A stretch of 64,000 nucleotides of DNA, from contig NZ_FNPX01000001.1 of the NCBI RefSeq assembly GCF_900107415.1, forward strand, positions 372,001-436,000. The letters are read 5' to 3'. The notes beneath the pieces were generated by a model. That model searched no databases. It had not been told where the DNA came from and saw nothing but the letters and a program-made list of their open reading frames with translations. The DNA comes from Jannaschia faecimaris. GTDB taxonomy: Bacteria > Pseudomonadota > Alphaproteobacteria > Rhodobacterales > Rhodobacteraceae. This document shows positions 16,684-39,231 of the stretch, piece by piece (the first letter of the stretch is position 1; the number at the start of each line of letters is the position of its first letter). A program made the translations under genes and the position numbers.

Positions 16684-17682
16684 ATGCTGACCGGATCGAC
16701 AATTCTGCTGACGGGGGGCACCGGCTCCTTCGGGTCCCGCTTCGTGCCTATGACGCTGGAGAAATACAAACCTCGTCGGATCATCATTTATTCGCGCGAC
16801 GAGATGAAACAGTGGGAGATGGCCAAGCAATACGGCCACCTGCCCGAGGTGCGGTTCTTTATCGGCGACGTGCGCGATCGGGATCGGCTGTACCGGGCGA
16901 TGGACGGGGTGGACTATGTCGTTCACGCGGCGGCGACCAAGATCGTGCCGACGGCGGAATACAATCCATTCGAGTGCGTCAAGACAAACATCAACGGCGC
17001 GATGAACCTGATCGATGCCTGTATCGACAAGGGCGTGAAACGCTGCGTCGCGCTGTCGACCGACAAGGCGTCTTCGCCCGTGAACCTTTATGGGGCGACC
17101 AAGTTGGCGTCCGATAAGCTGTTCGTGTCCGGCAACTCCTACGCAGGGGCGGACGGCACACGGTTTGCCGTGGTCCGCTATGGCAATGTCATGGGGTCGC
17201 GCGGATCGGTCATCCCGTTCTTTCTGACACTGGACGACGGACGCAAGGTACCGATCACCGATCCCCGCATGACCCGCTTCATGATCACGCTGGAGCAGGG
17301 GGTCGAGTTGGTCTGGCACGCCTTCGACGACATGATGGGCGGCGAAATCTACGTAAAGAAGATTCCGTCGATGACCATCACCGACATTGCCGAGGCGGCG
17401 CTGCCGGGGCGCGAGCAGGAGACCGTCGGCATCCGTCCGGGCGAAAAACTGCACGAGCAGATGATCGGCCCCGAAGACGCCGCGCATACCTATGAATACG
17501 ATGAGCACTTCAAGATCATCCCGGCGATCCACAACTGGTCGAAGGACCCGGTCCGAATCAAGGACGGCAAGCCCGTGGCGGAGGATTTCAACTACTCCTC
17601 CGACAACAACACCCAGTGGATGACCGACGCGGAGCTGGGCGCATGGATCGCCGCCAACCGCGACAAGATCGGCAAGTTCTGA
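16684..17682 (+). CDS. pseB: UDP-N-acetylglucosamine 4,6-dehydratase (inverting), first step of pseudaminic acid synthesis
   Basis: The 332-residue short-chain dehydrogenase/reductase has TGGTGSFGSRF for NADP binding, YSRDEMKQWEM typical of PseB rather than other dehydratases, and the catalytic segment STDKASSPVNLYGATKLASDKLF. RPGEKLHEQMI and the C-terminal NYSSDNNTQWM stretch also match PseB. It removes water from UDP-GlcNAc and inverts C5, giving the 4-keto sugar for PseC. The ATG at 16684 follows a GAGAGGACC-type site; an upstream extension has no protein character. Its stop overlaps the pseC start (TGATG). Confidence 0.95.
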   Translation: MLTGSTILLTGGTGSFGSRFVPMTLEKYKPRRIIIYSRDEMKQWEMAKQYGHLPEVRFFIGDVRDRDRLYRAMDGVDYVVHAAATKIVPTAEYNPFECVKTNINGAMNLIDACIDKGVKRCVALSTDKASSPVNLYGATKLASDKLFVSGNSYAGADGTRFAVVRYGNVMGSRGSVIPFFLTLDDGRKVPITDPRMTRFMITLEQGVELVWHAFDDMMGGEIYVKKIPSMTITDIAEAALPGREQETVGIRPGEKLHEQMIGPEDAAHTYEYDEHFKIIPAIHNWSKDPVRIKDGKPVAEDFNYSSDNNTQWMTDAELGAWIAANRDKIGKF

Positions 17683-18818
17683 TGATCCCTTATGGCCGGC
17701 AGGACGTAAGTCAGGATGACATCGACGCGGTGACCGAGGTGTTGCGTTCAGACTTCCTGACGCAGGGCCCCGCCGTGCCGCGGTTTGAGGCGGCAATCTG
17801 CGCGGCAACGGGCGCAAAACACGCGGTTGCGTCAAACTCTGCGACATCTTCGCTGCATGTCGCCTGTCTCGCGCTGGGGCTGGGGCCGGGCGACATCCTC
17901 TGGACTGTGCCCAACACGTTCGTTGCCTCCGCCAACGTCGGTCTCTACTGTGGCGCGACGGTCGATTTCGTGGACACCACGCCTGACACTTACGTCATGG
18001 ACGCCGATGCGCTGGAGGCCAAGCTGACCGCCGCCGCGACTGCTGGCAAGCTGCCCAAGATCATCATTCCGGTCCATTTCGCCGGGCAATCCTGCGACAT
18101 GAATCGCGTCGCCGCGATGGCCCGTTCCTACGGCGTCAAGATCATCGAAGATGCAAGCCACGCCATCGGGGCCCGCTACCTCAATCAACCCATCGGCGAT
18201 TGCGCCCACTCCGACATCTGCGTCTTCAGCTTCCACCCGGTGAAGATCGTCACCACGGCCGAAGGTGGTTGCGCCACGACGCAGGACGATGAGCTGGCCT
18301 ACCGCATGGGGCTTTTCCGGTCGCACGGGATCACGCGCGACGCCGATCGCATGACGATGGATGCGCCCGGCGGGTGGTACTACGAGCAACTGGAACTGGG
18401 TCTGAACTACCGCATGACCGAGATGCAGGCCGCCCTAGGCGTGTCCCAGATGAAGCGGTTGGATGACTTCGTGGCGCGCCGCAACGAGCTGGCGCGGCGT
18501 TATGACGATATCCTGTCGGATCTGCCGCTGACCCGGCCCGCGCAGAACCCTGATGCCTATAGCAGCTATCACCTTTACCCGATCCAAGTGGAGAACAGGG
18601 CGCGGGTGTTCAAGGCGCTGCGCGATAACGGGATCGGCGTGAACGTGCATTACATCCCGGTTCACCTTCAGCCCTATTATCGCAATCTGGGGTTCAGGCC
18701 CGGCGACTTCCCTCAGGCTGAATCCTATTACGATCACGCCATTTCTATACCGCTTTATGCCGGGCTGACGGACGCGGATCAGGATACTGTGGTTGCGGCG
18801 CTGAAGCGGTCGATTTGA
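17682..18818 (+). CDS. pseC: UDP-4-amino-4,6-dideoxy-L-AltNAc aminotransferase
   Basis: The 378-residue PLP-dependent aminotransferase belongs to the DegT/DnrJ/EryC1 family. The start ATG at 17682 overlaps the pseB stop. Key features are SNSATSSLHVACLALGLGPGD near residue 45, EDASHAIGARY binding PLP, and FSFHPVKIVTTAEGG, where the HPVK lysine forms the internal aldimine. LGLNYRMTEMQAALG and GIGVNVHYIPVHLQPYYR complete the PseC pattern. It adds the 4-amino group in pseudaminic acid synthesis. The operon should continue into further pse genes but is broken 91 bp downstream by an IS481 element. Confidence 0.95.
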   Translation: MIPYGRQDVSQDDIDAVTEVLRSDFLTQGPAVPRFEAAICAATGAKHAVASNSATSSLHVACLALGLGPGDILWTVPNTFVASANVGLYCGATVDFVDTTPDTYVMDADALEAKLTAAATAGKLPKIIIPVHFAGQSCDMNRVAAMARSYGVKIIEDASHAIGARYLNQPIGDCAHSDICVFSFHPVKIVTTAEGGCATTQDDELAYRMGLFRSHGITRDADRMTMDAPGGWYYEQLELGLNYRMTEMQAALGVSQMKRLDDFVARRNELARRYDDILSDLPLTRPAQNPDAYSSYHLYPIQVENRARVFKALRDNGIGVNVHYIPVHLQPYYRNLGFRPGDFPQAESYYDHAISIPLYAGLTDADQDTVVAALKRSI

Positions 18819-18827
18819 AGGGTATAT

Positions 18828-18968
18828 ATGACAACGACCCCCGACCGGTTCAGTGAGGTTGTCATCATCCGGGCGGGTTGCGTATCCAAGACTGTCAAAG
18901 TGCTGCGCCTAGGTGTTCAGTCAAGGCATCTTGTGGGTTGGCTTGAGAATGAACCTTCTCGGCTCTGA
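18828..18968 (+). pseudogene. 5' stub of a third pse-operon gene, cut by an IS481 element (possible cytidylyltransferase/SpsF-type)
   Basis: An ATG at 18828 with an AAGGG ribosome site starts 9 bp after pseC. Twenty-seven native codons follow, ending in SEVVIIRAGCVSKTVKVLR, before the frame enters the IS481 end at CTAG 18909-18912 and stops within it at 18968 (46 codons in all). The VVIIRAG...S K...KVLR spacing is reminiscent of the N-terminus of nucleotidyltransferases of the PF02348 type (IIQARxGSxRLPGKVLRPL), which occur in nonulosonic acid loci; this identity is tentative because the stub is short. The rest of the gene is not found elsewhere in the window. Confidence 0.6.
18909..18912. 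other. CTAG insertion site at the left border of IS481 copy 1
   Basis: CTAG directly precedes the GTGTTCAGTC terminus of the element. The matching site at the right border is CTAA (19967-19970). Bordetella IS481 is known to insert at CTAG-centred sites and duplicate them, so these four bases are likely target sequence, with one later change on the right. Confidence 0.55.
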
Positions 18969-19909
18969 TGTCCAGATTTTGCAGATGTATTCGTAGGGCG
19001 TGAGGCCGCCAAGAGTCTTGAGCCTGGGGGCAAAGTTGTAAGCTGTCGTGAAGTCGGTGAAATGCGCGTGGAGTTGATTGTAGTTGTCGTAATGGTAGCG
19101 CTTGACGGTGGCGTCCTTGATCGTGCGGTTCGTCCGCTCGACCTGGCCGTTGGTCCAAGGATGGCTGGGTTTCGCCAGCCGATGCTTGATCCCATTGGCG
19201 TAGCAGATCATGTCGAAGCGCATTGGTCGCGAATAGATGGTATTGCGGTTTCGGGGCTGCTCGGCGACCTGGATGCCATTATCCATGAGAATGGTGTGGA
19301 CCAGATAGGGCACAGCCTCGAGCATGTGCTGGAGGAACTCCCAGGCAGTTCGTCTGTCAGCTTTCTCAAAGGGTCGGGTGACGGCGAACTTGCTGGTGCG
19401 GTCGATACCGACGAACAGATATAGCTTTCCTTCAGCAGTTTGTACCTCGGCAATGTCGATATGGAAGAGCCCAATCGGGTAGCGTTTGAACTTCTGGCGC
19501 TTCGGATTGTCCCCCTCGATGTCAGGTAGGCGCGATATGTCATGCCGTTGCAGGCATCGATGAAGGGCCGAGCGCGTCAGGTGTAGGATCGACGGCTGTA
19601 AGGCACAGAGGCAGCTGTCCACGGGCAGAAGAGTATGGCGTCGGCACGCTGCGATCGCTGCTTCCTAGACTTCGGACAGGGCTGTTGAGGGTGGCTCCCT
19701 CGGCCCAGTCTTAAAGTCTTCCACCGTCGCCTGTTTCCGCCACTTCGAAATGGTCTTCGGATTGATGCTCAGCTCCCGGCTTAGCTGCGAGAGCGAAGCT
19801 TGCCCCTCTTGGGATCATGCCTTGCATGACCCTGCCGGGCAGTGGGTCGCTGTATTGCAGCTCTGACGGCGAACGTCGTCGTCGCGCTCCCGTGAAGAAT
19901 TTGTTGCAT
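18921..19909 (-). pseudogene. IS481-family transposase, inactivated
   Basis: Reading leftward from ATG 19907-19909, the frame starts MQQILHGSATTTFAVRAAIQR, the usual IS481 N-terminus. A 42-bp palindromic insert (19805-19846) then puts the rest out of frame. The frame resumes with ASLSQLSRELSINPKTISKWRK, meets a TAG at the position of a conserved Glu in LSEVxEAA, and continues intact from 19622 to 18921 through the DDE domain (FHIDIAEVQTAEGKLYLFVGIDR, ILMDNGIQ, PWTNGQVERTNRTIKD). The D-D-E residues of the catalytic core remain visible, so decay is recent and confined to the N-terminal part. Confidence 0.85.
19805..19846. repeat. About 40-bp palindromic module inside IS481 copy 1
   Basis: The 42 bp run CCTCTTGGGATCATG, then CCTTG, then CATGACCCTGCCGGGCAG and TGGG. 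CATG-centre-CATG flanked by GGG(A)T and (A)CCC forms a small hairpin. A closely similar module lies at 31028-31067 in an unrelated IS3-family transposase gene. In both cases the flanking bases rejoin into a normal transposase sequence if the module is removed, so it is an insertion and not part of either element. Confidence 0.65.
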
Positions 19910-19966
19910 GTCGCTTCCTTTCATTCATGAGAAAGGATCGCACCATCAAACGATGGGACCAAACAC

Positions 19967-20596
19967 CTAAGCTATTTTAGCATTTATCAGGCAATGGGAA
20001 TAAGGAACGCGCATCAAATCTTGCCGAATATGTGTGGTGACGTTGATGTAAGCGGGTGGAAAGACCTGTTCATAACCAGCAGTACTGCGAATATGACGCC
20101 CACTATCGAGGGCCTTCAAAAGTCTGGCAATCGGGTTTTGCCCTTTGTGGATGACGGGTTCGATTCCAATAAACTGCCCGCCCGGCACCAAAAGTTCGGC
20201 CGCTCTGGTCAGAACATTCCGCGCTATCGCGTCGTCCAGATGGTGCAGAATGCCAATGCCGATGACCGCATGTAGAGGGGTGTCGCTGTTTATCAGCGCT
20301 GTATCGCCCAAATCTCCGCAAATGAAGCTCGCCTGTGGCGACCCATATTGTGCGCGCGCCTGTTCAATATGGCGCGAGTTCCAGTCAATACCGGTATAAT
20401 GTTTGGTATGGCGCAGAACCGTGGCCCAACGCCCGGGACCGCAGCCAATTTCCAGTACGTTCTTGCCATCCAGTCCATCAAAGACCAGTTTGCCAACGCG
20501 CGCATAGGCATCGCTCCCAGCAAGGGCCGTTTGGATACGCTGATAAATCGCAGGGACCGTCACCAGTCGATAGATGCCTCGGGTTCTCTCTGCCAT
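19967..20596 (-). CDS. SAM-dependent methyltransferase
   Basis: The 209-residue class I methyltransferase has motif I VLEIGCGPGRWATVL, an acidic YTGIDWNSRHIEQAR, and IGIGILHHLDD. A GAGGGAAG site precedes the start. It probably methylates a sugar or lipid-linked glycan, judging from its neighbours; no substrate can be assigned. Its TAG stop lies in the four bases bordering IS481 copy 1. If CTAG/TTAG is the target sequence of the element, this TAG existed before insertion and the protein is complete; the C-terminus (HCLINAKIA) looks normal. Confidence 0.85.
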   Translation of the reverse strand: MAERTRGIYRLVTVPAIYQRIQTALAGSDAYARVGKLVFDGLDGKNVLEIGCGPGRWATVLRHTKHYTGIDWNSRHIEQARAQYGSPQASFICGDLGDTALINSDTPLHAVIGIGILHHLDDAIARNVLTRAAELLVPGGQFIGIEPVIHKGQNPIARLLKALDSGRHIRSTAGYEQVFPPAYINVTTHIRQDLMRVPYSHCLINAKIA

Positions 20597-20703
20597 CTTC
20601 CCTCTCGATAATTTGCGCGACCGGTGTGGTCATAGTAGAAGTGATGGCAGTTTGGAACCACGATAGCGCGGTGAGGATTTGCGCAGCCCTTGCCTTCGGG
20701 CGA

Positions 20704-21810
20704 TCAGGTGCACTGATCATTTTCGGGCATGCCGATTGGGGAAAGCACGGACGCGGCACCCAAACCCAATAGCCGCTCCGTCACAGCTTCGGACGACATG
20801 GGATGCAGCCCAACAACGATGTCGCGTCCACGCAAATCAACCTCGCTGGTGCGGAACACAGGTTTGTCGAAGGTGCGAACTCCTTCCAGATCATCGACGA
20901 TGATGCAGGTGATCCTTGACCAAAGTTTCGGTAAATAGGCACGGATCAGCTGACTGAATTCGCCACCGCCGAACAAGATCGGACTGCCAGACATTGCTTG
21001 ACATAGTCGGCCATCGGCCTGCGACCATTGCATCAGATAGCGAACCCGATGGGCATAAAGCGCGGCCACCGCAGTGGGGGGCGGGGCCGAGTCAGGGACG
21101 GGCGTGCGGGTGAAGTGGAACAATCTGCTGAACGGCTCCCACGGGGTAGGTTTGCTGTCTCGCAACCAAAGCCCCGACCCTGTCGCCACCGCTGCCATCG
21201 CTGTAGGGGTGAAGTGATACAGATGGTCCGAAAACAACAATTCATGGCTTGGCACCAAGCCGCTTGGACAAGACAGCAAGACATGCCCGTCTGGAGCCAG
21301 AATCGTCGCAATCTGTGCCAGAAACTCCTTTGGGTCCGCAATATGTTCTAACACGTGGTTGGCGTAGACAACCGCAAAGGGCGTGGCGAAACTAACATCC
21401 GCCAGCGTCCCGACGCGTATATCAATTTCGGATGTTTGGGGCAGGGATTCGGGGCTGGGTTCAAGCGCCGTAATCTGTGCATCGGGCATGGCGTGGGCCA
21501 GATGGAGGGACGTCTGGAAATTCGCCGCGCCCAATTCCAAGATCGGCCCAGACGCACCCAAAGCGGCTATTTCCGCCTGAAGGCCTTTGGCGATGCCAGC
21601 ATGTCGCGCAATCTCTCGCGGAGATGTGCCGTCGCTGCGCCGATAAGGCACCTCGATGTCAACGTTCCGCCCGATCAGGGCACTACAATCGGCGCAACTG
21701 TCCTTGCGCAAGGGTTCGTCCAAAATAAGACCGTCACTGCGCAACGCCCGCTTCAGGCCAACCGGAAACTGGGTCACAGACGCCGATTGGCACAACGGGC
21801 AGCGTGTCAT
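20704..21810 (-). CDS. Zinc-ribbon class I methyltransferase (sugar C-methyltransferase-like)
   Basis: The 368-residue protein begins MTRCPLCQSASV with a second CADC near residue 39, forming a four-cysteine zinc site. A SAM domain follows (GPILELGAANFQTSLHLA, ITALEPSPE, VVYANHVLEHIADP) and a C-terminal domain (PILFGGGEFSQLIRAYLP, IIVDDLEGVRTFDKPVF). This order matches the zinc-binding NDP-hexose C-methyltransferase superfamily (Methyltransf_13 / 14 type), though the usual GYGAxxK nucleotide motif is replaced by FGGGEFSQ. It overlaps the following dioxygenase gene by 4 bp, so both likely act on one sugar or lipid intermediate. Confidence 0.8.
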   Translation of the reverse strand: MTRCPLCQSASVTQFPVGLKRALRSDGLILDEPLRKDSCADCSALIGRNVDIEVPYRRSDGTSPREIARHAGIAKGLQAEIAALGASGPILELGAANFQTSLHLAHAMPDAQITALEPSPESLPQTSEIDIRVGTLADVSFATPFAVVYANHVLEHIADPKEFLAQIATILAPDGHVLLSCPSGLVPSHELLFSDHLYHFTPTAMAAVATGSGLWLRDSKPTPWEPFSRLFHFTRTPVPDSAPPPTAVAALYAHRVRYLMQWSQADGRLCQAMSGSPILFGGGEFSQLIRAYLPKLWSRITCIIVDDLEGVRTFDKPVFRTSEVDLRGRDIVVGLHPMSSEAVTERLLGLGAASVLSPIGMPENDQCT

Positions 21811-22673
21811 TTCCGGGCCCGTGCCGACAGATAGGCATCCACACTTTGGGGCGAGGGAAAGTCGAAGCCAAGAATACGGCGTTGGTCTGGCGTCAGGCCG
21901 CTTTCCTCGACATTGCCGGGTATCCGGATTTGCTGGCTGAAATACGGGATCGTATACACATGGTTGACCGCGCGCCGGTCAGCGGTCGAGCGGTTGAACC
22001 CGCCGGTGTGATAGGCCATGCAATCCAGCACGATATATTGTCCGGCTTTGGCATTCACTTGCAGCGCATGCGCTGACACATACGCGTCGGACGGATAATT
22101 TGGTGTCTTGTGCGATGCAGGAATGACCCAAGTACCGCCATTTTCCGACGTGAAATCATCCACACAATACAGCGCGTTCACGGCAAGCGGGACGTTGGTG
22201 ACAAAGTGCTGATAGGGCAGGTCGCGGTGCCATAGCCCCTGATTATAGGCGGCACCCGCCGGGTTAATAACCCCGTTTTGCTGGTTCAGAATGAACTGGC
22301 CGTCAATCAGTTGCCCGACCACGGATAGGATGTTCGGGGCAAAGGCCAGGTTGCGGAACGGTTCGGGTGACACGGCCATTGGCAGGCGCATCGAGTTGTG
22401 TTCGTCCATGCTCTCTAAGTGGTCTTCGCCCCAAGTGCGCGTGTATTCGGCGCGGGTCATGTCGAACTTCTGTTCAATGTCAGTGATTTCTGTCGAAGAG
22501 AAGCCAGAATCGACAATCGCATACCCAAGCCGCCGGATTTGATCGGCAGCCAGAAGCAGCGCGTCGTCCCACGTGTCACCGTGAAGTATACCATAGGCAT
22601 TATTTGCGGGAATGGGTGATGTCTCTTGCGGCGGCATGCGGTCCCCCGGTGCGGTCGCTTCGATATGGGGCAC
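21807..22673 (-). CDS. Phytanoyl-CoA dioxygenase-family Fe(II)/2-oxoglutarate oxygenase
   Basis: The 288-residue protein carries the iron-binding HxD in LWHRDLPYQHF and the distal histidine in AYHTGGFNRS, with RRAVNHVYTIPYFS supplying the 2-oxoglutarate-binding arginine. VIPASHKTPNYP is also typical of PhyH proteins. Such enzymes hydroxylate small molecules or modified sugars; the substrate is not predictable. It is translationally coupled to the zinc-ribbon methyltransferase (4-bp overlap) and divergent from the WbqC-like gene, with a 144-bp promoter region between. Confidence 0.85.
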   Translation of the reverse strand: MPHIEATAPGDRMPPQETSPIPANNAYGILHGDTWDDALLLAADQIRRLGYAIVDSGFSSTEITDIEQKFDMTRAEYTRTWGEDHLESMDEHNSMRLPMAVSPEPFRNLAFAPNILSVVGQLIDGQFILNQQNGVINPAGAAYNQGLWHRDLPYQHFVTNVPLAVNALYCVDDFTSENGGTWVIPASHKTPNYPSDAYVSAHALQVNAKAGQYIVLDCMAYHTGGFNRSTADRRAVNHVYTIPYFSQQIRIPGNVEESGLTPDQRRILGFDFPSPQSVDAYLSARARK

Positions 22674-22817
22674 TTACAAAAGGGGTGTCAAGATTGTCAG
22701 GCGGACTGCGCTTTGCATTCCCCGGCCTCGCGCTGTCGGTGCATACAGATTCACTTGGTCTTCTCGTCCCTGATCCGCTAAGGCACAGGCGGCGCTTTTG
22801 TGACACAGGGCAGACAG

Positions 22818-23498
22818 ATGACGCGCGTTGCGATCTTGCAGTCAAACTACATCCCGTGGCGCGGATTTTTTGATCTGATCCGCAAGGTAGATCATTTCGT
22901 GCTATATGACACTGTCCAGTTCACACGCCGCGACTGGCGCAACCGCAACCGCATTAGCACAACCGCGGGGCCGATTTGGCTGACCATCCCAGTAGAATCG
23001 ACGGGCAAATATTACCAGCGCATTAACGAAACCCGTGTTGCAGACCCGCGCTGGACCGAAACCCATCTGCGCAGCCTGCGACACGGGCTGGGGCGTGCCC
23101 CACAGTTCAAAACTTGGCTGGCACCGCGGCTGGAGGATTGGTTCGGGGCAATACGCGATGAAAAGCTGCTATCGAACATCAATCGCAGCCTGATTGCGGC
23201 CGTCATGGCAGAGTTGGGGATCACAACGACACTTCACAGCGCACAGGACCTGCCTGAAGCCGATGGACGCAGCGAACAGTTGCTGGAAATTTGCAAAGCC
23301 TTGGGGACGACGACATACGTGAGCGGTCCTGCCGCGCGCAGCTATCTGGACGAAGGGCTGTTCCAGTCCCAAGGGGTCAACGTCGAGTGGATGGACTATC
23401 CGACCTATCCAACTTACAGACAAACCAATGGCATCCATGATCCGGCAGTCTCCATTCTGGATACGCTAGCCTATCTGCCTCCTGAACAGGTTTTCTGA
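22818..23498 (+). CDS. WbqC-like family protein
   Basis: The 226-residue protein starts VAILQSNYIPWRGFFDLIRKVDHFVLYDTVQFTRRDWRNRNRI, the WbqC family signature, and ends with QTNGIHDPAVSILDTLAYLP. WbqC proteins are found in O-antigen and amino-sugar loci and are thought to transfer acyl or amino-acid groups; none is firmly characterised here. An in-frame GTG six codons upstream is possible, but the ATG at 22818 gives the usual family start. It is the first gene of a seven-gene plus-strand run (to 28037). Confidence 0.85.
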   Translation: MTRVAILQSNYIPWRGFFDLIRKVDHFVLYDTVQFTRRDWRNRNRISTTAGPIWLTIPVESTGKYYQRINETRVADPRWTETHLRSLRHGLGRAPQFKTWLAPRLEDWFGAIRDEKLLSNINRSLIAAVMAELGITTTLHSAQDLPEADGRSEQLLEICKALGTTTYVSGPAARSYLDEGLFQSQGVNVEWMDYPTYPTYRQTNGIHDPAVSILDTLAYLPPEQVF

Positions 23499-23502
23499 TC
23501 GC

Positions 23503-24552
23503 GTGTCAGACGTCAGCCAAACGGGTATTGCAGTGAAACTGTCGATCGTCACCACGCTATACAAATCGCAGTCCTTTATTGCCGAATTACATGCGCGTGT
23601 GACCAAGGTCGCGCGCGACCTTGTGGGCGATGATTATGAAATCGTGGTGGTCAATGACGGGTCGCCAGACCAGTCCCTTGATGCCGCGCTGACTTTGGCG
23701 CGCACCGACCCACATATGGTCGTCGTAGATCTCAGCCGTAATTTTGGGCATCACAAAGCACTGATGACAGGGCTGGACCACTCCCAAGGTGCTTTCGTTG
23801 CCTTGCTGGACAGTGATCTTGAAGAAGCACCCGAAGACTTGATTGTGCTGGCACAAGACCTGCGCACCAATCGTTGCGACGTAGCATTCGGCGTGCAGCA
23901 TAGTCGCAAGGGAGGTGTCTTTGAAAAGGCCAGTGGGGCAAGTTTCTATTGGCTTTTTGAAAAACTGACGGGGTCGGCGCTGCCGCGCAACCTGATGACT
24001 ATGCGACTGATGACACGCCGCTATGTCGACGCGCTGCTGCGGCACCGCGAACGCGACATGGTCATCGCAAATCTTTGGCAAATGACAGGGTTTGATCAAC
24101 GGCCCGTGATCCTGCACAAAGCGTCGCAAAGTAAGACAAACTATAGCATTTGGCGCAAGTTATCCCTGATGGTGACGGCTGTGACCGCTGTCAGCAGCCG
24201 ACCTTTGCTTGGGGTGTTTTACATTGGTGTCAGCCTGTTCCTGGTGTCCCTTGCCTATGTCGTTTGGTTGGTGCTGGTCTGGATGCTGCATTCACAGGTC
24301 CCAGGTGGGTGGACGTCGTTGATCGTCTCGGTCTGGATGTTGGGGGGATTGACGTTATGCGCCATCGGGATTCTTGGGATTTACCTTGCCAAGATATTCA
24401 TCGAGGTCAAGCAGCGACCCTATGCCCTAGTGCGCGCCGTTTTTCGTGGTGATGCCGAAGGAGATCTCCCAGATTACGAGGTATTTGCCGCCCTACAAAG
24501 ACCATCTTCGCCACTTGTTGAAACAAGGAGCCAACGGCCAAGCCATGAATGA
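23503..24552 (+). CDS. DPM1/GtrB-type membrane glycosyltransferase
   Basis: The 349-residue protein (GTG start at 23503) has a GT2 catalytic domain with VNDGSPDQSLDAAL, DLSRNFGHHKALMTGLDHSQG and the metal-binding LLDSDLEE, followed by two hydrophobic helices (about residues 245-275 and 285-310) like those of GtrB and ArnC/dolichol-phosphate sugar transferases. These enzymes move a sugar from a nucleotide donor to polyprenyl phosphate on the cytoplasmic face. The GtrA-like flippase gene is 2.2 kb downstream, and a polytopic protein at 32005-33984 could be the periplasmic transferase. The last 8 bp overlap the following methyltransferase start. Confidence 0.88.
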   Translation: MSDVSQTGIAVKLSIVTTLYKSQSFIAELHARVTKVARDLVGDDYEIVVVNDGSPDQSLDAALTLARTDPHMVVVDLSRNFGHHKALMTGLDHSQGAFVALLDSDLEEAPEDLIVLAQDLRTNRCDVAFGVQHSRKGGVFEKASGASFYWLFEKLTGSALPRNLMTMRLMTRRYVDALLRHRERDMVIANLWQMTGFDQRPVILHKASQSKTNYSIWRKLSLMVTAVTAVSSRPLLGVFYIGVSLFLVSLAYVVWLVLVWMLHSQVPGGWTSLIVSVWMLGGLTLCAIGILGIYLAKIFIEVKQRPYALVRAVFRGDAEGDLPDYEVFAALQRPSSPLVETRSQRPSHE

Positions 24553-26754: not shown

Positions 26755-26757
26755 TCC

Positions 26758-30607: not shown

Positions 30608-30611
30608 CTAG
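29697..30611 (+). CDS. IS481-family transposase with deleted N-terminus
   Basis: The 304-residue product keeps the second helix-turn-helix (ASLSELSQELGINPKTVAKWRKRKTVENQK) and the whole DDE integrase core (SHIDIAEVQTAEGRLHLFVGIDR, ILTDNGIQF, PWTNGQVERMNRTIKD). Compared with copy 1, the usual first 20-odd residues (MQQILHGSATTTFAVRAAIQ) are lost: the sequence jumps from the leader GGAAGGAAGC straight to ATTCTGGGGCAAGC. The frame is otherwise open and could make protein from the ATG at 29697. Its TAG stop lies in the CTAG at the right border. Whether it is active is unknown. Confidence 0.8.
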   Translation: MEGSILGQASLSELSQELGINPKTVAKWRKRKTVENQKTGPKEPRSTVLSEEEEAMIVGFRRHTLLPLDDCLYALQPSIPYLTRSALHRCLQRHGISRLPEVGGDKPKRQKFKRCPIGFSHIDIAEVQTAEGRLHLFVGIDRTSKFTVTQLVEKADRKTAWEFLEHLLKAVPYRIHTILTDNGIQFAEQPRNRNTIYSRPMRFNMICEANGIEHRLTKPNQPWTNGQVERMNRTIKDATVKRYNYDNHEELRTHLGDFMAAYSFARRLKTLGGLTPYEYICKIWTSEPDRFIIDPINQMPGLNT

Positions 30612-30649
30612 CGATCAAGAGTGATTCTTTTATCGGAAGGGCTCAAAAG

Positions 30650-31520: not shown

Positions 31521-31611
31521 AGTCCGATCATGCAACCCGGTCAGCAGGAGCAGAGAGTAGCTTTGAAAGCCCCAGATCCTGTCCATACTTTGCGGAGTAG
31601 CTCAAAGGGTG

Positions 31612-31942
31612 TCATGTGCCAACCCTGCGATTTGAGCGCCTGATCGACGCCCGGACCCCGTGCGCATGCTCCAGTGCACCCGGCAACTCTTTCAGCGTGA
31701 TGTTCGGGTCCTGCTCGACTAAATCGATCAGGAACGTGTGAAAAGGGGCCAGTCGACGGTGCCCGGACTTGCGTGGGTTCGATGCGGGGGGCGAGGCTGA
31801 CACCTTGCCGTATCTTCCGCGCTAAGCGCGACGCTGACGCCGCCGATATCATCAACCGGAGACCAGCCTCGGGACCAGACAAGCCTTCCTCAAGAAGTCG
31901 CCGGAAGCGGTTGCGAATTTCAGCCGACAGCGGCTTAGTCAT
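31612..31942 (-). pseudogene. IS630-family transposase remnant (N-terminal part, frameshifted)
   Basis: From ATG 31940-31942 with a GGAGGA site the frame reads MTKPLSAEIRNRFRRLLEEGLSGPEAGLRLMISAASASRLARKIRQG, the helix-turn-helix start of IS630-family transposases. A small indel near 31790 shifts it; the neighbouring frame continues SGHRRLAPFHTFLIDLVEQDPNITLKELPGALEHAHGVRAS and then is lost. No DDE domain remains. The fragment abuts the end of the IS3 debris and lies just downstream of the polytopic membrane protein gene. Confidence 0.75.
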
Positions 31943-32004
31943 GATCTTATCCTCCTGAACAGGATGAACCAGAAATCGTCCCCCCAGAGGCCTCCAAAGT
32001 CGAG

Positions 32005-33984
32005 TCAACGTAAGCTGGGACCGCTCTGGTCCGCGCACGTTTCGATCCATTGCGCGTCGGCGGAAATGACAAGCAGACGCGTCATTCCGCGCACCTGTGC
32101 TGTAGCGCAAAGCGCCTCATTGGCCAAATCGGTCGGTGCGCGACCTGCATGCAGGTCATAATCGGCCAGCCCGTAATACGGCGTGATCTCGCAGTTCTGC
32201 TCATCGGGCACGATCCCTTGCAGCATGGGCTTTCCCACAAGTGCGGGCAGTAAGAAAATAGTCGCCCAACAGACCTTTTGGCTATTCCAAAAAGCCTCAT
32301 GCGCGCCATCCAGCACAATGGCATCGATCTCCCTCGCGTGATCACGGCTTGCAAGAAGCGCTCGTCCAGGGGCCGTGTGTTGGACCGCGCGTTCGCCAAG
32401 CGATGTCGCTACAGGCAGGCTTGCAAGTGCCGTTTGATATCCCTCCAGCCGGTCAAGGCCGCGCAATTTGTTGTCATGCAGGAACATCATGACGGCAATA
32501 AAAGCCGCCACGATCCCAAACTGGCCGAAGGCCCCGCGGCGTGTCAGCCATTTCGGCACCAGCCCCAGCACGGGAACCAGCATCAGCCCCAGCCAACTTC
32601 CGGGGTCCGAGAAGTAATATTGCGCCCCTCCGGCCGTGTTGATCAAATAACTGGCCACTAGTCCTGCCCACATGCCAGTTCCCAAAGCCAACGTGAGGGT
32701 GCGTGCGCCATGGTCCCGGGGGAAATGCCGATACGCCAAACAGGTCAGGACCAAAGCAAACAGCAACGCGTAAATTGCCGGTTCCATATGTTCTTGCAGA
32801 AAGGCGAATGGTTTGATCATCGCCGCTTTGTCCGGCGTAGCAACAGGATAGATAAGGTAAATCGCAACCGTAGGTAATAAACCAGCCAGAATGCTAGCGG
32901 CCCATGCCAGTGGTTGCAGCCGTCCCGCAACCAGAATGCCCATGGCCACAGCACACGCCAAAACAGCTCCAACGGAAACTTTACTTAATGTAGCCAAGGC
33001 CACTGTGGCCGCCAAAAGCACGATCAGCAAACCTTGTCGGGGCAAAGCCTGATCAGCAGGGTCAACCAGTTGTTGCAGCAGGAGCACTGCCAACAACGCC
33101 ATCCAAAGCGACAGCGTATAGGATTCCGAGACGTAATACGAATGCCACATCAGCGCGCCACCGAATGCCAGCCACCCCAGGACACTGAACATGGCCGCCG
33201 TTGCGCCCAAGTGAATTGTTGCCGGTCGGTGCAGTTGGGCGGCGGTCTGCAACAACAATCCAAGCAGCACGGGAATTGCGACAATGGACATGAAGATCGC
33301 ATATCCATGTAACATCTCTGTTCCCAGCAACGCCGTGAAACCCCCTATCACGCGATGGCTAAACACATGATAGGCAATCGGAACCAATCCATCCGCCCCG
33401 ATGCTCGCGACCTGAGCGTGCAGCAAGTTCTGCGCGATTGCTGCGTGAAACAGCGTGTCATGGTGCGACAGCCCGGCAAGTGACGTTTCCAGCGCGACTG
33501 GCACCGAATAGTTCAGGCGCAGATTGATCAGTGCCAATGAGGCAGATACGGCAAACGCGAGGGTAACGACACTTGCGATATGGGTCTTGGGCAACTTCGC
33601 CGCTTCGCCGAATAACCTGACAAGGCCACGGACACTTATGATGATCGCCACAATTTCAAAACTGAAGCGCAACGATGCAGGTATATAGGCAAGGCCAAGT
33701 AGCATAAGCAGGATTGCGGCAACACTTTTGACTGTATGCGGCCCGCCAAAAGCAAAGCCGCACAATACAAACGCAAACGCAACCAAGATGCTGCGAAAAT
33801 ACGTCAGTGCCGGAATCGCAAAGCTGTCAGATCCTAGCAGTTCACGCAGTCCAACCACATATGACGCGCCGCAAACCACCAAGGTCAACGCGAAGATTGT
33901 CCCCAGCGTTTGCGTCATCATAGCAGCCTCTAAATTATTTTGAGCAGTCAGGGCAGTCGAATCAAAGACTTTGCTCGCCGGCAT
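32005..33984 (-). CDS. Large polytopic membrane protein of unknown function (candidate glycosyltransferase)
   Basis: The 659-residue protein has roughly 12-14 hydrophobic segments from residue 24 to about 520, then a soluble C-terminal domain of about 130 residues (IDAIVLDGAHEAFWNSQKVCWATIFLLPALVGKPMLQGIVPDEQNCEITPYYGLADYDLH). AAGGGGAG six bases upstream fixes the start at 33982-33984. The early luminal loop carries LAGLSHHDTLFHAAIAQNL with acidic and histidine residues, as many polyprenyl-phosphate-dependent GT-C enzymes do. With gtrA- and gtrB-like genes nearby it could be the periplasmic transferase of that system; this is inference. No family was recognised. Confidence 0.75.
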   Translation of the reverse strand: MPASKVFDSTALTAQNNLEAAMMTQTLGTIFALTLVVCGASYVVGLRELLGSDSFAIPALTYFRSILVAFAFVLCGFAFGGPHTVKSVAAILLMLLGLAYIPASLRFSFEIVAIIISVRGLVRLFGEAAKLPKTHIASVVTLAFAVSASLALINLRLNYSVPVALETSLAGLSHHDTLFHAAIAQNLLHAQVASIGADGLVPIAYHVFSHRVIGGFTALLGTEMLHGYAIFMSIVAIPVLLGLLLQTAAQLHRPATIHLGATAAMFSVLGWLAFGGALMWHSYYVSESYTLSLWMALLAVLLLQQLVDPADQALPRQGLLIVLLAATVALATLSKVSVGAVLACAVAMGILVAGRLQPLAWAASILAGLLPTVAIYLIYPVATPDKAAMIKPFAFLQEHMEPAIYALLFALVLTCLAYRHFPRDHGARTLTLALGTGMWAGLVASYLINTAGGAQYYFSDPGSWLGLMLVPVLGLVPKWLTRRGAFGQFGIVAAFIAVMMFLHDNKLRGLDRLEGYQTALASLPVATSLGERAVQHTAPGRALLASRDHAREIDAIVLDGAHEAFWNSQKVCWATIFLLPALVGKPMLQGIVPDEQNCEITPYYGLADYDLHAGRAPTDLANEALCATAQVRGMTRLLVISADAQWIETCADQSGPSLR

Positions 33985-34047
33985 GTCGACTCCCCTTATA
34001 GCGCGAAAAACTGGATAAGGTTCTAAGTCCTGTCATCGTTCACCGTA

Positions 34048-34440
34048 TCACCTTGATTGTAGACAACAAGGAGCTGACAGCTGATCGTGGGTTGATTGAC
34101 GCTCAGTGACAATCTGTAGGGGTTGTCCGTCGTCAGGGTATTTAGGACTCGTGGCCGCATGATTTAGCGGAGGGATCGGCTCGTTGGTTGGGTTAGTGTA
34201 AGCGGCGCGTTTGCGGTGTTGCAAACAGCGTTGTTTGATCGTCTTTTGCATGATCCTTTCGAGTTCGAGCGCAATTGACTTGCCATGTTCGAAGTAGACG
34301 TCAGCCGGTGTGAGATTGCCGAGGCTCTCGTGGTAGCCGTGGTGATTGTAGCCATCGACGAAGCGCTCGATGCTGGCTTCCAGATTGCCTGGGAGGAAGT
34401 AGTTTTCCAGCAGGATGCTTCCGTGTCGAATTTGTCCCAT
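34048..34440 (-). pseudogene. Chimeric ORF: IS481 transposase start fused in frame to an IS3 transposase tail
   Basis: The 130-codon frame begins MGQIRHGS, matching the MQQILHGS start of IS481 transposases together with its GACATG context, and then switches at about 34416 to ILLENYFLPGNLEASIERFVDGYNHHGYHESLGNLTPADVYFEHGKSI, the C-terminus of an IS3-family OrfB. This IS3 tail differs in type from the one at 31458-31520 (NRKRPNSALGG), so it comes from another element. The last 40 codons read into the IS3 3' flank. It cannot be an active transposase. Confidence 0.8.
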
Positions 34441-34489
34441 GTCACTTCCCTACATTCATGAGAAGGGATCAAACCATAGGATCAAACAC
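34417..34489 (-). mobile_element. IS481 end fragment, copy 3
   Basis: Read leftward from 34489 the sequence GTGTTTGATCCTATGG, the CTCATGAATG leader and GACATGGGACAAATTC match the 5' end of copies 1 and 2. CTAG at 34490-34493 lies just outside, as at the other copies. It has the same orientation as copy 1, so copies 1 and 3 flank the 20.0-34.0 kb segment as direct repeats. Confidence 0.75.
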
Positions 34490-35953
34490 CTAGTGGCCTG
34501 GAAAGGTCAGCGGCACCGAACCCTTAAGTAGACCCCCGATTATTTTAGCGGTTTGCGCTGTCGAGACTTCTTCGTCGAAGTCCTTGATCATTTTGACGTA
34601 ATGTCTGTCTACCAAGCCGCGATGGCTGCGAGCCAGCAGCGCACCCACGGCCTGTTGCAGGGCATAGTGGTCGATTTGCGTGTCGCGGATCGCCTCGTAG
34701 GTCGGCGCGTCCTCGATGTGATGCACCCCCGGCAACCCGCGATACCAGGCCGACCCGAAGACCAGAGCCGGGGTGCCTTGCCGTATGGCCTCCCACCCGA
34801 CGGTGCCGGTGATGCTGGCGACGAACCGGGCCTTTGCGGTCAGGGCATGGGTGTCGGCCCAACTGGGCAGGAGGGTCACCGAGGCGATGCGCCCCAGGCG
34901 GTGGAAGAACATCGGCCCGCGCATGTAGCTTCCCTGTTTGGGATTTTCCTTGACCAGGATGCGCACCCCTTTGGGCAGCATGTCGGCCAGTGTCTCGATG
35001 GCGTGGGCCTGATCGCGGAAGCGACCGCCAAGGCTGCTCGTGGTCATCTCGGGCTGTAGCTGCAGTGGGAAATAGACGAAGTCGCCGTCCAGGTTCAAAA
35101 CCTGATCCTCGAAGGAGGTCAAGTGGTCGAAGTACTCCAGCGCGTCCTCGTGGAAGAACTTCGCGAAGGGATCGCGCCATTTTGGCAAGCCACCGTAGAT
35201 ACGACTGACATCCTTGGTCAGCCGCCACAGGTAGGCGGGGTTCAGAGCTTTGAGGGGCCGCTTAAGGGCAAGAAACGTCGCGATTTGCGCCATGCCCTTC
35301 AACGTAGGCCTGCCACCTGCCTCAGGTTCCTGCTTGATACCTTGCATATAAAACAGGTCAGGTCTGGATCCTTGCTCAATCGCGAAAGGCTTTGCCGTTA
35401 GATCGGGCGGAAACCGCCCAAACTCATGCGGATCACGCAAGGAAAAGAAGCGATCGGGAAACAGCGATTCCGTGACGATGGTGCAGGGGATGTCCAAGAC
35501 CTTGGCCATCTGGAAGACGATAGTGTCATAGGTCAGGTGCGGCACGTTGAAGAACAAACAGTGCGTGATCCCCTTGTCGATCAAAGCCTGTCCGATCACG
35601 TCGGCCAAAATGTGATAGTAATCCACGTAGTCCTGCATTGTTCGCAGGGGGTGATTTTTGTGCGCGTTGATGTCTGAACGGCGGTGTAAATGGTCTATAA
35701 AGGTTTCCATCTGGTCGAGGAAGTCAGGCGACTCAATCAAGGCTTGTCCTGCCCCAGTCCAGCGCTGTTTGGCAAACAAGTGTCCTTTGCCGCCTTGCCG
35801 CGTATTCATTCGTGTAATGGCGGACGCCTTAATGTCGGCCGTAACATGCCCCATGTGCAGCGCGATTTTTATATCTTTGTTTTTGCAAACTAATTTCTCA
35901 AGGATGGCATCGGTGTTCGTCGCCGTAGATACGACCATCAGGCGCATCGTCAT
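34490..35953 (-). CDS. Capsular polysaccharide biosynthesis protein (PF05159/KpsS-KpsC-like)
   Basis: The 487-residue protein has a GT-B-like C-terminal half with RILVKENPKQGSYMRGPMFFHRLGRIASVTLLPSW, then ALTAKARFVASITGTVGWEAIRQGTPALVFGSAWYRGL, the pattern of capsule synthesis proteins related to Kdo transferases. The N-terminal half (MRLMVVSTATNTDAI, ITHCLFFNVPHLTYDTIVFQMAKVLDIPCTIV) binds the acceptor side. Coupled by a 4-bp overlap to pseI, it is a good candidate to transfer or export pseudaminic acid-containing glycan. Its TAG stop lies in the CTAG bordering IS481 copy 3; in this frame CTAG necessarily reads as a stop, so the protein is probably complete. Confidence 0.78.
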   Translation of the reverse strand: MTMRLMVVSTATNTDAILEKLVCKNKDIKIALHMGHVTADIKASAITRMNTRQGGKGHLFAKQRWTGAGQALIESPDFLDQMETFIDHLHRRSDINAHKNHPLRTMQDYVDYYHILADVIGQALIDKGITHCLFFNVPHLTYDTIVFQMAKVLDIPCTIVTESLFPDRFFSLRDPHEFGRFPPDLTAKPFAIEQGSRPDLFYMQGIKQEPEAGGRPTLKGMAQIATFLALKRPLKALNPAYLWRLTKDVSRIYGGLPKWRDPFAKFFHEDALEYFDHLTSFEDQVLNLDGDFVYFPLQLQPEMTTSSLGGRFRDQAHAIETLADMLPKGVRILVKENPKQGSYMRGPMFFHRLGRIASVTLLPSWADTHALTAKARFVASITGTVGWEAIRQGTPALVFGSAWYRGLPGVHHIEDAPTYEAIRDTQIDHYALQQAVGALLARSHRGLVDRHYVKMIKDFDEEVSTAQTAKIIGGLLKGSVPLTFPGH

Positions 35954-36999
35954 GGTCCCACCATCGACCAGGCCAACGGCTCGCCGCGTGACAGGGCGCG
36001 CGTGGTCACGCGGCCCAGGACCTCGGGAAGATGGTGCGGGGCTAAGCCGTTGCCGGGGCGGACCGAGCGCACGTCATCTTCAGTCAGGGCTGCCCCGGCA
36101 GCCACGTCGCGCACCACATAGAGCGAGCGGCGGAACTGCGCGTTGGCACCGCCCACGCCTTTTCGGTCGTACTGCGGCGGGCCAAGGGCTGCGTGCGCCA
36201 TCCGGCAGTCATCGACCAGCGATTTGAACTCACCCGGCTCCAACGAGAATTCGGCGTCCGGGCCGCCGTCGGATCGCCGGAGCGTCAGGTGCTTCTCGAT
36301 AATGCAGGCCCCGCGCGCGATGGCCGCGACCGAGACCGCCGATCCCAGCGTGTGATCCGACAGCCCGATTGGCACGCCAAATGCCGCGCCCAGCGCCTCG
36401 ATGGTTTGCAGACGCATAGTTTCCGGGGCCGCCGGATAGGCCGAGATACAGTGCAGCAATGCGAACCCGTCCGCCCCGCCCTTGCGTGCGGCGGCGCAGG
36501 CGCGCTCGATCTCGGCGTAATTCGCAATGCCCGTCGACATGATCAGGGGCAGGCCCTTGGAGGCGGCTTTCTCGATCAAGGGCGTGTCCACCAGCTCGAA
36601 TGAGGCGATCTTGTAGGCTGGCACACCAAGGCCATGTAGGAAATCCACCGCCGTCGGATCAAACGGCGAGGAAAAACACTGCAAGCCGTGAACCCGTGCG
36701 CGGGCGAACAACGCCTCGTGCCAGTCCCAGGGCGTCGAAGCTTCTTGGTAGAGGTCGTGCAGCGTGCGCCCGTCCCATGGCCCGCCGTTGATCCGAAACT
36801 CGGGGCGGTCCACGTCAAGGGTGATCGTGTCGGCGGTATATGTCTGCAATTTGACGGCGTCCGCGCCGGTATCGGCGGCGGCATCCACCAGCGCCAGCGC
36901 GCGGTTCAGGTCGCCGTTATGGTTCCCCGAGAGTTCCGCGATGATGTAGGGGCTGTGGTCCGGCCCAATGGCGCGGCCCGCGATGGCATAGTCCGTCAT
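35950..36999 (-). CDS. pseI: Pseudaminic acid synthase
   Basis: The 349-residue protein starts at ATG 36997-36999 (MTDYAIAGRAIGPDHSPYIIAELSGNHNG). The NeuB-type barrel contains TGADAVKLQTYTADTITLD, CFSSPFDPTAVDFL, KIASFELVDTPLIE, IGLSDHTLG and IIEKHLTLRR; the C-terminal SAF antifreeze-like domain starts near residue 290. It condenses 2,4-diacetamido-2,4,6-trideoxy-L-altrose with phosphoenolpyruvate to pseudaminic acid. LSGNHNGDLNRAL distinguishes PseI from sialic acid synthases. Starts and stops overlap both neighbours by 4 bp. Confidence 0.95.
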   Translation of the reverse strand: MTDYAIAGRAIGPDHSPYIIAELSGNHNGDLNRALALVDAAADTGADAVKLQTYTADTITLDVDRPEFRINGGPWDGRTLHDLYQEASTPWDWHEALFARARVHGLQCFSSPFDPTAVDFLHGLGVPAYKIASFELVDTPLIEKAASKGLPLIMSTGIANYAEIERACAAARKGGADGFALLHCISAYPAAPETMRLQTIEALGAAFGVPIGLSDHTLGSAVSVAAIARGACIIEKHLTLRRSDGGPDAEFSLEPGEFKSLVDDCRMAHAALGPPQYDRKGVGGANAQFRRSLYVVRDVAAGAALTEDDVRSVRPGNGLAPHHLPEVLGRVTTRALSRGEPLAWSMVGP

Positions 37000-38528
37000 G
37001 TGTCCGGTCCCCTTTGCGGCAGGCGAAGTCGCTGTCTGACTTCCCATGTCTTCAACGCGAAGGCCAGAACCGACGGATCATCGGATGGCACCTCGGCAAA
37101 TCCTAACCGGCGATGCAGGCGAAGGGAGGTGGTGTTCTCGTGCCGGACGGTCGCGCGGATCGTTTCGGCCCCCGGTGTCTCGGCAAGAAGGCGCAGGAAA
37201 GCGCCGCACATGCGTCCGCCGGCCCCCTGTGGCGCGTCTTCGTCGCCAAGGTAGAACGACCAGGTCCAGCCATCCGGCCCGCCGCTGGCCCCGCAGATGC
37301 CCACATCGCGCCCCCCCTCCTGCCAAACGCACCAGCGCGCGTCATCGCGGGTCAGCTCCTGTGTCAGCCAGGGAATGTGGCCTTCCGCGGTGACGGGGGC
37401 CTGGCTGCTGGTGACGGCAACGATCCGTGGCTGATTGCGCCAGCTCATCATCATTTCCGCATCGTTCAGAGTCAGGGGCCGCAATCGCGCTTCCAACGCG
37501 CATACTACCCGGCCGGCCCCGCGTCCGTCGCACAGTTTGGCCGCTTTGCGCGACATATCTCCGGCGCGGTCGATCCCTTCCTGGATGGCGTGGCGCAGGG
37601 TTGGCGGATCGCGCGCGGCCTCCAATGACAGTGGCACGATGGCCCCGGCCTCTGCCAAGCCCGCCACCGCGTCGCGCTGGTTGTCCGCTACCGTGACCGT
37701 CACTGTCGGAAGGCCCAGGCAACACCGTTCCCACGACGTCATTCCCCCCGCACCGACGCAAAGATCGGCCGCGACCATTCGTTCCCCCATGTCGATTGCA
37801 TCCAGCGTCAGGGTCACGCCGGGGCGCTGGTGGTCACGCACCGCTTCAGCGCTTTGCGCGTCCGCTGACATGACGACCTCCACCTCAAGATCGTCGAAAT
37901 CCTTCAGCGCGTCCAAAACAAGTGGGGCCAGCCCGGCGGCATCCATCATGCCGGGTGTGACCAGGACCCTGCGCACCGGCCCGCCGCGCCGGGTCAGGGC
38001 GATGTCCCTCAGAGTGGCGAATTCCGGGCGAAGGAGCGCATAGCCCGGGCCCCGCAACACGGCCGCTGCGCCGAATTTCAGCTCGCCGGCAAGCCGAGTC
38101 TGATCCAACAACAGGTCTGACGCCAATTCCCTGTCGTCCAGATCGTCGATGGCGAGGACGCGGATGTCGGGGGCTTTGCCCCGCACCTGCGCAACCCAAT
38201 CGGCGTCAAGGCCATAATGATCCCAGATCAGCCAATCCGCACCGGTTCGGGCGGCAATCTTGCCGGTGGTCATGCCGTCCACCTCCGGGTCGACGCGCCG
38301 CCAGGCGGCATGGGGCGGGGCATTGGCCGACGCGACAGTCGAAACGGGCAGGGAGTGCACCTCGAATCCCGCGCTGCGGACCCGATCTGCCATCCCATCC
38401 GACGCATCGGCCATCACGAATTCGACCCGATGCCCCGTGTTTGTCAATGCATCCGCCAACGTCAGGCAGCGCATGACGTGCCCGCCGCCGATACGCCGAT
38501 CGCCGTCCACCCGGATCAGCACGCGCAT
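36996..38528 (-). CDS. pseG: PseG-PseH fusion: UDP-sugar hydrolase plus N-acetyltransferase
   Basis: The 510-residue protein joins two pathway steps. Residues 1 to about 340 are the PseG hydrolase (IRVDGDRRIGGGHVMRCLTLADAL, IWDHYGLDADW, DLLLDQT, CVGAGGMTSWERCCLGLP), which releases the sugar from UDP. Residues about 348-500 are a GNAT acetyltransferase like PseH (LRPLTLNDAEMMMSWRNQP, WSFYLGDEDAPQGAGGRMCGAFL, ATVRHENTTSLRLHRRLGF), which acetylates the 4-amino group. The order is not the metabolic order, since PseH acts before PseG. No separate pseH is in the window, so the fusion makes the set of six activities complete. Confidence 0.93.
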   Translation of the reverse strand: MRVLIRVDGDRRIGGGHVMRCLTLADALTNTGHRVEFVMADASDGMADRVRSAGFEVHSLPVSTVASANAPPHAAWRRVDPEVDGMTTGKIAARTGADWLIWDHYGLDADWVAQVRGKAPDIRVLAIDDLDDRELASDLLLDQTRLAGELKFGAAAVLRGPGYALLRPEFATLRDIALTRRGGPVRRVLVTPGMMDAAGLAPLVLDALKDFDDLEVEVVMSADAQSAEAVRDHQRPGVTLTLDAIDMGERMVAADLCVGAGGMTSWERCCLGLPTVTVTVADNQRDAVAGLAEAGAIVPLSLEAARDPPTLRHAIQEGIDRAGDMSRKAAKLCDGRGAGRVVCALEARLRPLTLNDAEMMMSWRNQPRIVAVTSSQAPVTAEGHIPWLTQELTRDDARWCVWQEGGRDVGICGASGGPDGWTWSFYLGDEDAPQGAGGRMCGAFLRLLAETPGAETIRATVRHENTTSLRLHRRLGFAEVPSDDPSVLAFALKTWEVRQRLRLPQRGPDT

Positions 38529-38532
38529 CGCG

Positions 38533-39231
38533 TCAGTCCCCCAGCCCCATCAGGCCGGCCAATCGTTCCGCCCGCGCCCAGTCGTCCGGCGTGTCCACGT
38601 CGATGCAGCGATCGTCGGGCAGGACGACCGCCGCCGCCCCGTCCCAGATCCGCGCTTCCGGGTCGGTCCAAGTCGCCGCGCGCGCCCAATAGAATTGCCC
38701 CGCGTCGAAAAAGGCCTCCTCCAGATCCTGCGATCGCTTGGGCATCTGCGCCGCGTCGAAGGCGGCCACGCGCGTCCCGTCCTGGCGGTAGGCACGCTGA
38801 ATCGGGGTGCGATATTTGCCAAGGCTCAGTGCCCAAGTCGCGCCGCGGCCCAAGGCCGCGAAACCGGCCTTCAGGTCGTCGCCTGTCACGAAGAACGCCG
38901 TGGGATAGAGACAACAAACCGGAGTTGTTACGGGCAGACCCAGTCGCGTCACCGCGTCGCGGATCACCTCGGTCGTGCCAGCGTGGTCGTCCGACAGGTC
39001 GTCGGCGCGCAGGAATGGCACTTCTGCCCCGCAGGCCCGCGCTACCTTGGCGATCTCCGCGTCATCGGTGGTAACCACGATCCGGTCGAACAGGTTACTG
39101 TCTTGCGCCGCCGCGATGGGCCAGCCGATGGCGGGCCGACCGGCAAAGGGGCGGACGTTCTTGCGCGGAATGCGCTTGGAGCCGCCGCGCGCAGGCAGGA
39201 TCAGGACGGGGCCTTCGGATGGGTCGCGCAT
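38533..39231 (-). CDS. pseF: Pseudaminic acid cytidylyltransferase
   Basis: The 232-residue enzyme has LPARGGSKRIPRKNVRPFAGRPAIGWPI (CTP-binding loop), VVTTDDAEIAKVARACGAEVPFLR, LYPTAFFVTGDDLKAGF and FDAGQFYWARAATW, matching PseF rather than NeuA by the KRIPRKN and GQFYWA signatures. It makes CMP-pseudaminic acid for glycosyltransfer. It leads the minus-strand operon pseF, pseGH, pseI, capsule gene, with 4 bp to pseGH. The 142-bp gap to choV should hold its promoter. Confidence 0.94.
   Translation of the reverse strand: MRDPSEGPVLILPARGGSKRIPRKNVRPFAGRPAIGWPIAAAQDSNLFDRIVVTTDDAEIAKVARACGAEVPFLRADDLSDDHAGTTEVIRDAVTRLGLPVTTPVCCLYPTAFFVTGDDLKAGFAALGRGATWALSLGKYRTPIQRAYRQDGTRVAAFDAAQMPKRSQDLEEAFFDAGQFYWARAATWTDPEARIWDGAAAVVLPDDRCIDVDTPDDWARAERLAGLMGLGD

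Follow-up and report, generated by a model that had tools for sequence, protein, structure and literature searches.

Pseudaminic acid (Pse) is a sialic-acid-like sugar. In Jannaschia faecimaris, a marine bacterium of the same genus as Jannaschia marina, the genes for its synthesis (pse) lie in two groups that point towards each other across DNA holding other glycan genes and remnants of insertion sequences (IS). How did the pathway come to be divided in this way, and does the division break it? The window, that is the whole 64,000-nucleotide stretch of DNA analysed here, lies within a 576-kb contig.

Two facing arms and the segment between them

The locus comprises the following features:

16684..17682, plus strand: pseB, UDP-GlcNAc 4,6-dehydratase (inverting); TIGR03589, 522 bits (cut-off 408)
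17682..18818 (start from translation), plus strand: pseC, aminotransferase, last gene of the left arm; TIGR03588, 549 bits (cut-off 424)
18819..34489, no strand: very probable insertion (the island), spanning the 15,671 bp that separate the stop codons of pseC and the PF05159 gene; absent from J. marina
34490..35953, minus strand: PF05159 (Capsule_synth, KpsC/KpsS-like) gene, last of the pseF-GH-I arm; Pfam, 29 bits (cut-off 20)
35950..36999 (start from translation), minus strand: pseI, pseudaminic acid synthase; TIGR03586, 473 bits (cut-off 340)
36996..38528, minus strand: pseG-pseH fusion; TIGR03590, 226 bits (cut-off 154)
38533..39231, minus strand: pseF, cytidylyltransferase; TIGR03584, 246 bits (cut-off 206)

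The two arms, pseB-pseC (16684-18818, plus strand) and pseF-pseGH-pseI (39231-35950, minus strand), face each other with all frames open, and the NCBIfam models bear out the rightward and leftward assignments of an earlier note on this DNA. The same note counted all six Pse activities as present. Five of the six enzymes (PseB, PseC, PseG, PseI and PseF) indeed pass their NCBIfam equivalog cut-offs, whereas the PseH half of the fusion reaches 41 bits against a cut-off of 93 in the PseH model and is recognised by Pfam as a GNAT domain. The start of the PF05159 gene overlaps the pseI stop codon and, counting the window, 10 of 15 convergent loci have a homologue adjoining pseI; the gene is therefore counted as the fourth gene of the arm. 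With this gene joined to the arm, the intervening DNA shrinks from the roughly 17 kb described earlier to 15,671 bp, although its description as DNA of lower GC that carries glycan genes and IS remnants holds. The six open arm genes have dN/dS ratios of 0.055 (pseB) to 0.174 between the window and J. marina, values that mostly reflect the time before the insertion; dS is high (0.70-1.64).

Since all arm genes are open, synthesis of CMP-pseudaminic acid should continue. The island sits where the arms meet and apparently breaks neither of them. The arms would form two convergent, tightly packed operons, pseB-pseC on one side and pseF-pseGH-pseI followed by the KpsC/KpsS-like glycosyltransferase (GT) on the other, each probably with its own promoter.

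Ancestry of the convergent order

The closest relative found with a pse locus, J. marina SHC163 (locus L011), shows this convergent order too and has no island. By blastn, the window is collinear with this locus at 15908-18808 and, in three pieces, at 34598-48096, and in J. marina ~107 unmatched bp separate the two collinear sides. The loci share convergent arms and choline/betaine-type flanking genes, with arm proteins that are 72-94% identical; unlike the window, J. marina lacks the island, and its GT gene and its pseC share 18 bp at their facing 3' ends.

A PseI search of 394 family genomes returned 39 matches at E 1e-60. The 25 with at least 49% identity were used (20 fetched and 5 already included); the 14 weaker ones (at most 43%) were left out of the tree, and the PseI loci of three of these were inspected for another purpose. 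Thirty-four loci were arranged by tblastn and, with the window, make up the 35 rows of the PseI tree. The window falls into a 17-row Jannaschia/Defluviimonas set (support 100/99), 16 rows of which are convergent, and the convergent label needs 2 changes on the tree as against 11.9 in shuffles. The window belongs to this class by its layout, pseBC facing (F-)GH-I(-GT), and by the place of its PseI inside the set. In L050, the sole non-convergent row, the pse genes all share one strand and stand in a different order; L052, counted as convergent, is cut by its contig end, so that pseB is seen to face the GT gene and pseC is not in view. Within the genus, 5 of 20 genomes have a PseI match: three are convergent (the window's, G019, which is J. 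marina, and G008), one has a co-directional operon (G005) and one is of another type (G018).

Three further layouts are worth recording. L054 (9879-15640), a row just outside the convergent set with support of only 86/71, has divergent arms, I-H-G-F pointing away from B-C. Two distant convergent loci of pse type, L087 (8394-15044) and L088 (9037-14759), have PseI, WbqC and methyltransferase genes facing PseF-C-B. In L022 (6549-8058), the pseGH of genome G032 matches as two pieces in different frames.

The earlier note had allowed for an inversion or an insertion and preferred the former, in which an ancestor with pseF directly after pseC would have had the block after pseC inverted. Co-directional B-C-F-G-I operons do occur in more distant loci (L021 of the congener G005, L059, L060, L062, L065 and L066), whose PseI proteins lie outside the convergent set, and the one-strand order of L050 occurs inside it. 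The pse operon on pSymB of Sinorhizobium meliloti RU11 (L083), which we take to be the one named rkp-3, serves the same six-step pathway, with PseB 80% and PseC 64% identical to those of the window, but runs in one direction throughout (B-C-F-G-H-I), without a convergent split. The premise that pse genes usually form one operon thus applies to S. meliloti; it is not general in Alphaproteobacteria, because the Pse enzymes of Caulobacter have well-separated locus numbers, according to the available portion of PMC7591256. Against an inversion in the window's own lineage, J. marina is collinear on both sides, J. marina, G008 (same genus) and G032 (same family) are convergent without the island, and the convergent loci form one set on the PseI tree with one exception. 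The collinearity with J. marina led us to reject this model, which we find scarcely credible; an inversion could have created the convergent order only at an earlier stage, for example at the base of the whole 17-row set. Since J. marina is convergent and collinear without the island, and 16 of the 17 rows are convergent, convergence is ancestral here and the split is an insertion. Close relatives with the same split order, which the note had named as evidence against a rearrangement, are found as regards the convergent order but not as regards the island, which is absent from J. marina.

Two convergent pse operons were therefore very probably inherited, and an IS-rich 15.7-kb segment of unrelated glycan genes was inserted at their junction, at the pseC stop codon. 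The arrangement would descend from the ancestor of a Rhodobacterales locus set whose two 3' ends often abut or overlap.

The island, its borders and its genes

The features of the island are as follows:

18910..19969, minus strand: IS remnant A, rve/rve_3 transposase, ends TAGGTGTT...AACACCTA; stop codons interrupt the transposase frame
19967-20596, minus strand: methyltransferase (Pfam)
20704-21810, minus strand: methyltransferase (Pfam)
21807-22673, minus strand: PhyH dioxygenase (Pfam)
22800..27186, plus strand: six-gene cassette of WbqC-like, GT2, methyltransferase, NeuD-like acetyltransferase, beta-propeller/'glucosyl hydrolase'-like and GtrA genes (Pfam, NCBIfam)
27183..28037, plus strand: methyltransferase (Pfam)
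28048..29259, minus strand: WecE/FcnA-like dTDP-4-amino-4,6-dideoxyhexose transaminase; NF008687, 538 bits (cut-off 375), TIGR02379, 494 bits (cut-off 435)
29652..30610, plus strand: IS copy B, terminal 8-mers TAGGTGTT/AACACCTA as in A; open transposase frame, 77% identical to A
32005..33984, minus strand: 659-aa membrane protein, multi-spanning by eye and in a poor model; no Pfam or NCBIfam hit
34048..34492, minus strand: remnant C, C-terminal transposase fragment (rve_3, below the Pfam cut-off) and IS end (Pfam and end sequence)

GC per kb is 0.52-0.60 at 19-36 kb as against 0.59-0.67 elsewhere in the window. Absent from a collinear relative, atypical in composition and bordered by mobile elements, the segment qualifies as a genomic island. 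Judged by eye, the C-terminus of pseC is kept at the left joint, and the GT gene ceases to match its J. marina counterpart no more than a few bases from the place expected for the pseC stop codon. In the window the GT protein is 487 residues long, in J. marina 489; the last residues differ, and the window's gene takes its TAG stop codon from the three bases with which the IS end begins; the insertion would have changed only these last residues, with the stop codon now supplied by the IS. No second copy of the 90 bp between pseC and IS A was found in the genome itself, no direct target-site duplication was recognised by eye at the island ends, and a promoter and terminator scan at the left joint found 1 + 1, with 0.9 + 1.6 expected. 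Elsewhere in the window and outside the island, 55961-56913 and 59893-60818 form a diverged DNA duplication of ~0.7 kb with 64-69% identity.

The IS elements are characterised by rve and rve_3 hits and a length of ~1 kb, 'IS481-like' being a name from the earlier note only. The frame of A has one internal stop and another near the start position. A third IS end, at 34485-34492 beside remnant C, shares its last 8 bases with A and B; this right-border end is 76% identical to A over 84 bases, and the transposase fragment of remnant C was matched by neither the A nor the B transposase (locus L043). A genome search with B gave 16 matches, among them B itself and pieces of the same copies, with non-self matches at most 91% identical. 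As identity is 76% between A and C and 77% between A and B, the joints are unlikely to have arisen from collapsed identical repeats. If the island were a composite transposon that entered as a unit between two matching IS copies, the same 8-mer IS ends would be expected at both borders, as is found, and the transposase remnants at these two ends both lie on the minus strand. Against this, all that the right border offers is a short IS end next to a piece of a seemingly different transposase; the island has another copy in its interior, the copies are not identical to one another, and a target duplication was not recognised. We regard this route as rather doubtful. Given three IS remnants and the single-copy 90 bp beside pseC, the island may have grown in steps, its entry presumably being due to IS-mediated recombination.

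The first five genes of the cassette recur in order on plasmids of Rhizobium sp. Q54, Peteryoungia desertarenae and Azospirillum brasilense (L080-L082), where the proteins are 35-61% identical to those of the window; unlike the window, these cassettes have no pse match in the stretches examined. In Q54 the cassette is followed by GtrA, methyltransferase, rfbB, thymidylyltransferase and transaminase genes. In genome G185, eight of the island's glycan genes lie together, PhyH and one of the methyltransferases next to it among them; the 18 kb examined there contain neither a pse match nor a match to the IS transposases. A relative of the cassette methyltransferase (24446-25183) is found at E 1e-15 in 10 of the 394 family genomes, the window's included. 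The best models for the island GT2, PgfS and ArnC, are both under their cut-offs, and the NeuD-like acetyltransferase scores 159.5 bits against a cut-off of 160.8. The 659-aa membrane protein has no relatives in plasmids or in the 393 other family genomes at E 1e-10, and its structural model (pLDDT 41) is unusable.

Family knowledge suggests that the cassette encodes an undecaprenyl-phosphate-linked amino-dideoxysugar pathway. The WecE-like transaminase would provide an amino sugar, which acetylation, methylation and WbqC would modify, GT2 would transfer onto undecaprenyl phosphate and GtrA would flip; the sugar may then decorate a surface glycan independently of Pse. For WbqC, a role as glycine transferase is one idea; no paper on it was found in the open-licence literature, and the one paper listed there for WbqC is, by its listing, off topic.

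The junction as an insertion site and the destination of pseudaminic acid

Stop-to-stop distances were compared in the 15 convergent loci with pseC in view. Facing ends abut, overlap or lie close together in L011 (-18 bp), L012 (-88), L049 (G075; -15), L055 (G133; -8), L017 (3) and L020 (G008; 130); distances are 936 bp in L053, 1080 each in L015, L016, L022 and L051, 1183 in L013, 2099 in L014, 2292 in L018 and 15,671 in the window. Nine of the 15 loci (eight of 14 without the window) hence hold extra junction DNA of 0.9-15.7 kb. Within the arms, spacing never exceeds 166 bp in 48 adjacent pairs (15 B-C, 14 GH-I, 10 I-GT and 9 F-GH). The arms themselves are not invariant, since pseF does not adjoin pseGH in 5 of the 15 loci: L014, L018 and L055 have no pseF hit, and in L017 and L053 the gene lies far off and on the opposite strand. 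L049 is truncated where its contig stops.

On the pseC side, L013, L015, L016, L022 and L051 carry a 362-375-aa protein with no Pfam hit (all but L016 scanned); L014 has an AT3-SGNH-type acyltransferase, L018 TetR/NmrA/HTH genes and L053 its 936 bp of DNA with no assigned gene. As the five loci with the alternative protein share one gene family, independent events number fewer than nine. The junction is a recurrent, low-cost insertion slot, which is a modest and largely ordinary finding. Selection against operon breakage accounts for the pattern, and no special mechanism is required. The alternative slot protein was considered as a relative of the arm GT and rejected (hhalign probability 1.4, E 0.037, 25 columns); a PDB search with it gave grancalcin only, at E 0.56-0.68. 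In Defluviimonas nitratireducens, the GT gene beside pseI (L012, 12613-14076) has a stop after 91 codons and yet a near full-length tblastn match, possibly a frameshift or a pseudogene.

The extra DNA in eight of the 14 other junctions could also mean that the ancestor already had the island and that J. marina and the remaining compact loci each lost it independently. This is highly improbable: no island gene was matched in those junctions, the named contents of which differ, the compact loci have overlapping stops, and the plasmid copies of the cassette already point to transfer unlinked to pse. Moreover, island genes have no match in the J. marina locus except for the expected DegT/PseC cross-match, and the J. 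marina genome has no match to methyltransferase 24446-25183 at E 1e-15. A functional tie is a separate matter, in which WbqC and the methyltransferase would modify the same Pse-containing glycan and selection would have placed the island here. Homologues of both lie inside distant PseI-type loci (L019, L087, L088 and L089), in L087 and L088 at the very junction between convergent arms. Their identity is, however, only 28-36%, the closest cassettes found (L080, L081, L082 and L086; core genes 35-62%) have no pse match in 17-19 kb, three of these four carry a WecE-like transaminase, and the junction in L018 holds TetR/NmrA genes; on the Azospirillum plasmid of L082, pseB and pseC do occur, ~90 kb from its cassette. 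We consider such coupling unlikely. Similarly improbable is the broader idea that the tail-to-tail junction is a standing cargo slot, in which GTs and decorating enzymes that decide the destination and capping of Pse are swapped and the WbqC-methyltransferase pair of the island is one Pse-decorating module. Insertion of an unrelated segment remains the preferred reading.

For the arm GT, five homologues are well conserved (mean column identity 72%, alignment A1). A profile search of the PDB had KpsC as its sole hits up to E 1 (E 0.15-0.18), and a single-sequence search gave nothing at E 5. In Foldseek, UDP-GlcNAc 2-epimerases come first, with KpsC and WbbB further down; with a model pLDDT of 60 and a query TM of at most 0.29 among the 50 rows listed, the fold evidence is weak. 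The available portion of PMC12887879 describes Acinetobacter KpsS1, a KpsC-related protein, as a retaining Pse transferase of family GT118; like the window's gene, it is a KpsC/KpsS-like protein in a Pse-using pathway, the likeness being drawn through the PF05159 hit and the insignificant KpsC hit, not through the KpsS1 sequence. The available portion of PMC9587256 makes no mention of Pse or KpsS. From its position beside pseI and its PF05159 domain, our best guess, about as apt to be wrong as right, is that the arm protein is a Pse transferase.

No description of pse loci in these genera was found among the papers listed from the open-licence literature, judged by title and the start of the abstract. 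For Rhodobacterales, the analysis flags a KpsS-like gene as a candidate pseudaminyltransferase, and what looked like a broken pathway becomes a clear example of two convergent operons that offer a harmless landing site.
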